From the IMG/VR virus record IMGVR_UViG_3300021440_000133, positions 1-22,129 of that record: a stretch of 22,129 nucleotides of DNA; one strand, given 5' to 3'. Origin of the DNA: a virus. How positions within the stretch are numbered: position 1 is the first letter of the stretch; every line of letters starts with the position of its first letter. The position numbers and the translations under genes are program-made. The notes under the pieces are model-generated. The model saw only the letters and a list, made by a program, of their open reading frames with translations, was not told where the DNA came from and made no database searches. Below are positions 20,048-22,129 of the stretch, in pieces.

Positions 20048-20062
20048 GCTAAGACTAAGACT

Positions 20063-20096
20063 ATGTTAAGGATCAGAAGATGTTAAGGATCAGGAG
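20063..20096 (+). repeat. 17-bp tandem direct repeat, two copies
   Basis: ATGTTAAGGATCAGAAG (20063-20079) is followed directly by ATGTTAAGGATCAGGAG (20080-20096), differing at one base. It is preceded by a shorter AAGACT duplication. This looks like slippage or a duplicated binding site. Confidence 0.85.
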
Positions 20097-20185
20097 TTAC
20101 AAGGTGCAAGCAAGAATCCCTGTCAGGACAGCTAGGACAGCCAGGACAAGTGCCGGGGGGCACTTCCCATACCCTTGTAACTCCT
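20092..20185. repeat. 13-bp perfect inverted repeat enclosing iterons and a GC hairpin
   Basis: AGGAGTTACAAGG (20092-20104) is exactly complementary to 20173-20185. Inside are the left AGGACA triplet and AAGTGCCGGGGGGCACTT (20148-20165), a 7-bp stem with a GGGG loop. A long outer stem plus an inner hairpin could form in RNA or as a DNA cruciform. There is no T-run after it, so it is not a usual terminator. Confidence 0.7.
20122..20148 (+). repeat. Left iteron set: three 9-bp units
   Basis: GTCAGGACA, GCTAGGACA and GCCAGGACA are directly adjacent, with consensus G-Y-Y-AGGACA. The perfect 9-bp phasing is close to one helical turn, as is usual for protein-binding iterons. Confidence 0.75.
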
Positions 20186-20372
20186 TGCCAGTTACTAGCC
20201 ATATATCCTATGCCCTTCTATCTTTTATATATAAAAATTTTAAAGGGTTAAATATACAGACGCAATTATATAAGGAAGGGGAGAAACTTACAGAGAACAG
20301 AATAGGCTCAGGAATTAGAATAGAAAGGAACAGTCAGAACTTAGGAAGGCAGGGAACAGGGGGCGCGCCTTC

Positions 20373-20399
20373 TGTCCTGAGTGTCCTGCGCGTCCTGTT
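20373..20399 (-). repeat. Right iteron set: three inverted 9-bp units
   Basis: TGTCCTGAG, TGTCCTGCG and CGTCCTGTT are adjacent; on the minus strand they read CAGGACG, CAGGACA and CAGGACA with two variable bases before each. They mirror the left set at the same 9-bp phase, about 250 bp away. GAAGGC/GCCTTC (20345-20350 and 20367-20372) forms a stem just before them. Confidence 0.75.
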
Positions 20400-20442
20400 G
20401 GGGATCGAGAGCTTGCAGGCTAACTTACAGAAAAGATTTAAA

Positions 20443-20475
20443 TTGACTATAACAGGTTATCTGTTAACCTATACA
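20443..20475 (+). promoter_or_regulatory. TTGACT with nested palindromes, candidate controlled promoter
   Basis: TTGACT (20443-20448) is a good -35. Downstream lie two interleaved inverted repeats: TAACAG/CTGTTA (20450-20455, 20461-20466) and AGGTTA/TAACCT (20454-20459, 20465-20470). The best -10, TATACA at 20470-20475, sits 21 bases from the -35, which is too long for strong activity. The palindromes would be suited to a dimeric regulator covering the promoter of the gene at 20547. Confidence 0.35.
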
Positions 20476-20507
20476 TTCAATAGGGCTTTTGCGGCTCCCT
20501 ATAGAAT
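20475..20507 (+). other. Imperfect stem-loop in the leader of the 227-residue gene
   Basis: ATTC-A-ATAGGG pairs with CCCTAT-A-GAAT across an 11-base loop: ten of eleven positions pair, with one A-A mismatch. It ends 39 bases before ATG 20547 and would lie in the 5' leader or act as a DNA site. Confidence 0.45.
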
Positions 20508-20546
20508 TCAGCCAATGCCGCTAACTCACTCAAAAGGTAAATATCT

Positions 20547-21230
20547 ATGAAAATCCAGACTACTTACAATTTCAAGTCTATCACTGCTGCTGCTTTCGCT
20601 GTAATCCTGAGCAATTATGACGAAGCAAGTCAAGATGTTATCAAGGAACAGTTTGCCTTCACTGAAGGCGCAGAAAAACCCTATAAACGGAACCCAGTAA
20701 CAGTAGATATTACACTGCCTGAAGTTGTTGCAAGCTTTAGCGATGACGAAGGTGGTAAGTTGATGAAACGCGCAATTCAGCGCATTGTCGAAGACTTTGT
20801 TAAAGCTGTCTATATTGAGGAATTCCAGCCAGTAGGACAGCACGATTGGGACTACATTGCAGCAGAACTGGCTAAGTCTGGACGCGGTGGTATTTCCATT
20901 GCCGTAGCAGACGAACTCTGGCAGTTGGCAGCATCTACAGTGAAAGCTTGGGCGACTGCTTCAGAACTTAATCCTAAACTCATTGGCGCATTTACCAATG
21001 TAATAGCAGGTAAGTTCACTGAGAACAATATACGCAAGCACTTTGGAACTTCTGAGCCTGAAACACTGCGCAAGATTGAAATCAAGATAAATCAGTGGGC
21101 AAGCTGGATCTTGGAAAATGACAAGGACAATGCGGACGATCTAGCTGTGGTTTATGAGGCGATAACCAAGAAAATGGATAAGATGCTGAAACGTGAAAGT
21201 GGCGAGATTCTGGCTAACCTGCTGGACTAA
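20547..21230 (+). CDS. Hypothetical early-region protein, 227 residues
   Basis: ATG 20547 is preceded by AAAGG nine bases upstream. The protein is acidic, mixed alpha/beta, with no signal peptide or membrane helix. Residues 1-60 contain YNFKSITAAAFAVILSNYDE and a short strand-rich part. Residues 70-100 are a charged helix region (GGKLMKRAIQRIVEDFVKAV). The C-terminal half is helical, with KIEIKINQWASWILENDKDN and a Lys-rich end. It lies next to the origin-like stretch and ends at a rho-independent terminator, so it is expressed as its own short unit. A replication-linked or regulatory role would fit the place, but no family is recognised. Confidence 0.65.
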   Translation: MKIQTTYNFKSITAAAFAVILSNYDEASQDVIKEQFAFTEGAEKPYKRNPVTVDITLPEVVASFSDDEGGKLMKRAIQRIVEDFVKAVYIEEFQPVGQHDWDYIAAELAKSGRGGISIAVADELWQLAASTVKAWATASELNPKLIGAFTNVIAGKFTENNIRKHFGTSEPETLRKIEIKINQWASWILENDKDNADDLAVVYEAITKKMDKMLKRESGEILANLLD

Positions 21231-21346: not shown

Positions 21347-22129
21347 ATGCATTATATCTGCACAATTACAGATCAACGGGTTAAAGTCGATGGGAACTTA
21401 TTTAGTTCTATCGTGCTGAATCAACCGCATCCCATCTTTAGGCTAAGTTTGAAACAGTTATGCAAGCTGGCGCAGCAAAAGATACAGAACCAGAATGAGC
21501 AGGAGTTGCTATTCCTTGCAATGGCCTTGCAACTGCCATCAGTGAACCTATCCGGCAAGATACCTTTGCCGCTGCCAAGCCACTATCCAAGATTTGCCCA
21601 GTTATATCAGTCCAAGTTATTAGAACTATTAGACTGGTCTGATACTTATAAGCTTGGCAAATTACCAGAATTCAATCTTAGCAAAGATACATTGCTGGCC
21701 TTTCCTAACTATCTAAAAATGCTGGCCGACATAAAACTGTGTGGCGACTATAGGCCAAAGAACTATGAGCCGCTCGACATGGAGTCAAGACTCGCCAGAA
21801 GGCAGGAACTAGCTAAAGCCTCAGCTATAAGAAAGGCTCAGGACAAGCTAAGTCTTGCCAATGTAATAGACTGGGCAAGTGATGTTCTACAGTATTCTGC
21901 AATCCAGCGCAAGCTGTTTCACAAGGCCGCATCCAAGCAAGGAAACGGCATAGACAACTTACAAGACTTTGTGAATGATTGCCTAGACCGTCTGCCAGAA
22001 TCTAACGAACTGCAATATATAAAAAAGGTGTGGCTCTTGGATCAATTGCAGGCTCAGCTATACGATAGGATAAAGATATTGCAGGCTCTTGGAGTTGATA
22101 TTAGCCATCGCACAGAATACTTAGAAGTT
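21347..22129 (+). CDS. Hypothetical early-region protein, N-terminal part (cut by right edge)
   Basis: ATG 21347 has a perfect AGGAG seven bases upstream and the frame stays open for 261 codons to the window end. It begins MHYICTITDQRVKVDGNLF. Residues ~35-60 and 165-260 are helical and charged. A Pro-rich middle (about 68-82) and an Arg/Lys/Glu-rich helix (around 150-170, SRLARRQELAKASAIRKAQD) stand out. No Walker, zinc-finger or nuclease motif is visible in this part. Its codon use (CTG, GCC, AAG, CAG) matches the other plus-strand genes. The place after the origin-like stretch suggests DNA replication or an early role, but I do not recognise it. Confidence 0.65.
   Translation, partial: MHYICTITDQRVKVDGNLFSSIVLNQPHPIFRLSLKQLCKLAQQKIQNQNEQELLFLAMALQLPSVNLSGKIPLPLPSHYPRFAQLYQSKLLELLDWSDTYKLGKLPEFNLSKDTLLAFPNYLKMLADIKLCGDYRPKNYEPLDMESRLARRQELAKASAIRKAQDKLSLANVIDWASDVLQYSAIQRKLFHKAASKQGNGIDNLQDFVNDCLDRLPESNELQYIKKVWLLDQLQAQLYDRIKILQALGVDISHRTEYLEV

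Follow-up and report, generated by a model that had tools for sequence, protein, structure and literature searches.

Phage P4 replicates with an alpha protein, a primase-helicase initiator that recognizes two iteron clusters, ori and crr, lying kilobases apart. In archaeal ORB origins (Orc1/Cdc6) the AT-rich unwinding element is flanked by initiator sites in inverted orientation; the ORBs are longer single sites. In the SaPI origin, iteron clusters flank an AT-rich region. The short SaPI iterons lie near replication genes, and the initiator that binds them seems to work as a pair of hexamers (PMC7581432).

The window, by which we mean the whole 22,129-base viral record analysed here, carries late genes (TerL, portal, SU10-like major capsid) on the minus strand and early genes on the plus strand. 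Among the early genes, upstream of gene X (p227), lies a non-coding element with two facing arrays of short repeats (Table 1). We propose that this element is probably an iteron replication origin in which two half-origins face each other across an unwinding element. An origin is the most likely function because in related phages the repeats are wholly different while the layout, and the gene next to it, are retained.

Anatomy of the element

The mirror-image AGGACA triplets reported by an earlier, sequence-only reading of this DNA are borne out: three perfect copies on the plus strand face two perfect copies and one AGGACG on the minus strand (plus-strand letters TGTCCT at 20373 and 20382, CGTCCT at 20391). 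The arrays are well separated, as had been noted, but by 224 bp, slightly less than the 250 bp given. Reading from the left, a 13-bp inverted repeat encloses the left array of three iterons, which has an outer block before it and a GC hairpin after it; then come the AT patch, a strand rich in purines, the three iterons of the inverted array and the reversed outer block. Continuation of the dyad beyond the iterons (TGCAAGC..ATCCC / GGGAT..GCTTGCA) and the 13-bp inverted repeat are additions to the earlier description, whereas the GC hairpins that it placed between the arrays were found again, one adjoining the left array and the other (GGCGCGCC) near 20361. Its AT-rich core had to be narrowed to a single patch of ∼ 50 bp, which ranks in the top 0.05% of windows for AT; the whole inter-array gap is 58% AT, compared with 56% for the record. 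The stretch thus holds several short direct repeats with a candidate unwinding element beside them, as expected of an iteron origin. A direct repeat, ATGTTAAGGATCAG, occurs twice, 17 bp apart, just ahead of the element (20063–20093).

Table 1. Coordinates of the element, its parts and the neighbouring genes in the window.
Feature	Position	Strand	Details
Non-coding stretch housing the element, 499 bp, between 75-aa ORF and 227-aa ORF	20048..20546	.	
13-bp perfect inverted repeat AGGAGTTACAAGG / CCTTGTAACTCCT around left array	20092..20185	.	arms 20092-20104 / 20173-20185
Outer dyad block, left half: TGCAAGC + ATCCC	20105..20120	+	sequence
Left iteron array: AGGACA x3, period 9 bp	20125..20148	+	copies at 20125, 20134, 20143, all perfect
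GC hairpin AAGTGCC-GGGG-GGCACTT adjoining left array	20148..20165	.	sequence
AT-rich tract, candidate DNA unwinding element	20219..20273	.	84% AT over 50 bp from 20224
Right iteron array, mirror orientation: AGGACA x2 + AGGACG, period 9 bp	20373..20396	-	
Outer dyad block, right half: GGGAT + GCTTGCA	20401..20417	-	sequence
Gene X, 227 aa (p227), neighbour of the element	20547..21230	+	family with P5_0035, PaMx41 gp01, Tiera_055, ORFs of L004 and L005
Gene Y (p261), cut by window end	21347..22129	+	weakly similar to P5_0037

A 156-aa ORF overlapping the element (20080–20550) was rejected as a gene, its codon statistics being non-coding, and an Rfam search of the element gave no match at the gathering score. 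The 24-bp array pattern (≤ 3 mismatches) occurs twice in the window and in none of 100 dinucleotide shuffles. A score based on any 6-mer was equalled in 1 of 2000 shuffles of the local 499-bp stretch and in 8 of 200 shuffles of the whole 22-kb window, a modest genome-wide significance. Because of the latter figure, the mirrored arrays of the window, taken alone, are suggestive rather than overwhelming. Between the two arms the hexamers agree at 17 of 18 positions, and the two 3-base spacers at 1 of 6, about chance level; judged from these letters, this is the pattern of repeated protein sites.

Neighbouring genes

Compared with a profile built from its relatives in Table 1, which match one another, gene X gave a weak hhalign match (probability 69%, E 4.5e-5, single comparison). 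We found no close relatives of X among cultured phages and none of X or Y in viral_contigs, and blastn of the region against phages gave nothing useful. Structure models of both proteins were of low confidence (mean pLDDT 63 for X and 42 for Y), and a fold search with the X model yielded no usable match. The family members in L004 and L005 have acidic C-terminal tails (DDIDVDLFETE in L005) reminiscent of ssDNA-binding proteins, and terminator-like hairpins lie 3′ of several genes of the family. P5_0037, the protein to which Y is weakly similar, precedes a Dda-like helicase. No primase-helicase was detected in the 22-kb window with PF19263 or phrog_1156; the record, a fragment, stops within Y in the early region. 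The 75-aa ORF preceding the element had no family matches, so the SaPI/P4-like placement of iterons directly downstream of an initiator gene is not seen here.

Three related podoviruses keep the layout with other iterons

Relatives were gathered by their TerL, all at 33–41% identity: the viral contigs L003–L005, Aeromonas P5, EBPR podovirus 3 (EBPR3), Polaromonas Tiera and the Jamesmcgillvirus group (Fredfastierviridae). When whole genomes were scanned for 6-mer clusters that face each other, the window, PaMx41 and L004 were each found to have a single element, and L005 two. One of the two in L005 lies inside a helicase-like gene; all others adjoin X. The element of PaMx41 has three CAAGGT copies facing four (ACCTTG), a configuration reached in 0 of 2000 local shuffles; it spans the record end, and its continuity was confirmed in FBPa48 and 20Aug470. 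L004 has AGAATC ×4 facing ×3 in exact 9-bp steps, plus one further copy farther away, and L005 has GGAACG ×3 facing ×3, with steps of 20 and 10 bp in one arm against 29 and 29 in the other. Genome-wide nulls were 0/200 for each of these three phages. The cores of the window, L004 and L005 contain 50-bp patches of 78–84% AT, each in the top 0.05% of its own record. Facing arrays lie within ∼ 250 bp of X in all four phages, at 119–149 bp in three and ∼ 230 bp in PaMx41, upstream of X in the window and downstream of it in PaMx41, L004 and L005. Within Jamesmcgillvirus the arrays and the AT core persist through indels, and the arrays are kept in all seven isolates aligned.

The sequence-only reading had named relatives lacking the repeats as evidence against an origin. 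On this point the result is mixed: AGGACA arrays were found in none of the TerL relatives, three of them have an equivalent array, and the facing-cluster scan of P5 and EBPR3 found no such element. Tiera has a weak version only, TGTTCG ×2 facing CGAACA ×2, with a 23-nt dyad. This mirror lies in a 780-bp non-coding stretch (L129:43392-44171) that also carries a perfect 72-bp tandem duplication, the 23-nt dyad being long-range.

Alternative functions

The element could instead be a transcriptional control region, where a repressor or activator would bind both arrays, loop the DNA and control early genes and possibly a carrier state. Lying in the X leader in the window and amid early genes in the relatives, it is well placed for such a role; two facing arrays would suit DNA looping, and the turbid plaques and persistence of the phage Shea (PMC13348215) would also agree. 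However, a scan of the non-coding stretch, which covers sigma-70 type promoters only, revealed no promoter-like site, the element lies 3′ of X and of a terminator-like hairpin in three relatives, and the AT-rich patch would be superfluous for an operator. We consider a control region unlikely.

The repeats might also form a packaging (pac) site recognized by the small terminase subunit. In these phages ∼ 1–2.3 kb separates the element from TerS, and two records, those of PaMx41 and PaP2, start inside its core, but record starts vary among isolates (FBPa48, 20Aug470, TF17, Neko) and the constant neighbour is X, not TerS. Symmetric arrays around an AT patch are, moreover, unusual for pac sites, and we consider this explanation very unlikely.

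Iteron arrays act in partition and incompatibility in plasmids, and a segregation protein could bind the iterons for episomal maintenance. The reported episomal persistence of the relative Shea (PMC13348215) would agree with this, but the proteins scanned included nothing resembling ParA or ParB, and a partition/incompatibility site seems highly improbable.

A long-range RNA helix joining the two arrays in an early transcript, which the sequence-only reading offered as its second option, can practically be dismissed: folding does pair the arrays (z = −4.2 for the window element), but the spacers between the hexamers are not complementary, arm spacing and copy number differ (as in L005, above), the z-scores are nearly equal on the two strands (−4.25 and −4.29 in the window, −6.4 and −6.1 in L005), which is what a DNA dyad, and not a strand-specific RNA, should give, and a 23-bp insertion splits one arm in the Jamesmcgillvirus isolates Neko and 20Aug470 with no partner change in the other. 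Spacing and strand symmetry are the grounds for this rejection. Arms that differ in iteron count and spacing, and that match in their hexamers and not in their spacers, fit DNA sites for a protein better than an RNA helix.

GGACA arrays in other contigs

A scan of viral contigs for the AGGACA triplet returned many coding repeats and one non-coding class. In six contigs (L023, L025, L082, L099, L134 and L135), GGACA/TGTCC arrays follow a primase-helicase gene: they start no more than tens of bases from its stop codon and cluster within ∼ 230 bp of it. The primase-helicases are of the VapE, D5/DUF5906, Prim-Pol and PriCT_2/AAA_25 types, and that of L135 has a predicted HTH at its end. SaPI origins sit just downstream of rep (PMC7581432), and by analogy the arrays at the 3′ ends of these genes would represent a SaPI-like layout. 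PF19263 or phrog_1156 was matched in 6 of 8 records > 10 kb of the non-coding class and in 4 of 27 coding-repeat records, a comparison that is descriptive and not blind because six proteins from the non-coding class had already been viewed when the records were sorted by eye on their repeat pattern.

GGACA itself was rejected as a signal. Most of what the triplet scan picks up is coding repeats, and in the viral contigs the mirrored motif occurs no more often than a reversed-letter control (5 loci against 8). Repeat-selected viral loci gave 45 loci with a match in 1.2 Mb and were not taken as a null because of this inflated background. The facing GGACA pattern was also seen in 96 bacterial stretches of genome_contigs (L145–L224), several per genome in MAGs of Acidobacteria and Chlamydiae; these are probably repeats of another kind. 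Other arrays came to light in the scans. Four near-identical contigs (L061, L078, L091, L093) carry TCCTAG/CTAGGA mirror arrays ∼ 80 bp apart, with no PF19263 or phrog_1156 match on these short contigs. In an IMG/VR contig (L126:9526-9789), 14 AGGACA/TGTCCT copies, some in each orientation, are densely packed close to integrase-like ORFs. The control scan matched facing TAACAGGTG arrays with a 9-bp period, 66 bp apart, in one virus group (L137, L139, L140, L141, L144), where they sit upstream of terminase-like and head-tail connector genes.

Model for a proposed iteron origin

For the element as a double-stranded DNA replication origin, we envisage that a phage-coded initiator binds the 9-bp iterons of both arrays and that the AT-rich patch between them melts. 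Helicases would then load on the two strands, so that forks may leave in both directions. Candidates for the initiator are X and Y, a different early protein, or a helicase of the DUF3987 family that is predicted to lie past the window end. The sequence-only reading had likewise suggested an origin bound by a phage initiator; its origin gains support from a layout kept near the same place in relatives with a replaced iteron, and the initiator's binding is predicted. The cumulative GC-skew that it put forward as a check was uninformative, as skew tracks the direction of transcription and does not single out the element. Among the genes of the TerL relatives are those for Pol I, a DUF3987 protein and a Dda-like helicase; PaMx41 gp29, called ORC2-like by its depositors, matches DUF3987. 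A D5-type initiator was dropped as the primary idea for the window because the TerL relatives carry DUF3987 and Pol I, and DUF5906 was not found in the three viral-contig relatives. DUF3987 is a predicted helicase family of mobile-element replication (PMC5862659).

A broader and more tentative proposal, which we regard as possible but doubtful, is that the origin of this podovirus group is plasmid-like and self-sufficient, made up of two half-origins that face each other, with an initiator family without a recognized fold, a recognition sequence replaced wholesale between lineages, and a genome living as an episome in dividing cells. If true, it is the self-sufficient replicator that would permit this episomal life. 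For most phages with Pol I-type replication, no mapped origin is known. A layout that stays fixed while the recognition sequence changes offers a direct route to the initiator, which should be whichever early protein varies along with the iteron, and to a test of replicator specificity. Testing the origin reading is practical in cultured phages because episomal persistence has been reported for Shea (PMC13348215), a Jamesmcgillvirus isolate that shares 98.6% identity with PaP2; with cultured isolates and a reported episomal carrier state in this genus, the prediction is testable at once.

Comparison with known systems

In the literature searched we found nothing on this podovirus group in work on phage iteron origins and no earlier description of the Jamesmcgillvirus CAAGGT element. 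The locus shares with the SaPI origin and its Rep initiator helicase short iterons close to replication genes. It differs in that the SaPI origin directly follows rep, whereas the window element adjoins X, an initiator only by candidacy, and in that the window belongs to a podovirus, with Pol I and DUF3987 genes present in its relatives. Iterons in two clusters are common to P4 and the window, but the window has a single compact element of 270 bp, and no P4-type protein was seen in its 22 kb. Archaeal ORB origins likewise have inverted sites on either side of an AT-rich patch; their sites are longer and single. An Orc1/Cdc6 homologue was not found here; PaMx41 gp29 gives a DUF3987 match. The CAAGGT element of Jamesmcgillvirus (PaMx41, PaP2, FBPa48) differs in its iteron, its ∼ 10-bp rather than 9-bp spacing and its position downstream of X, and has the same layout, a similar size and the same neighbour, X.
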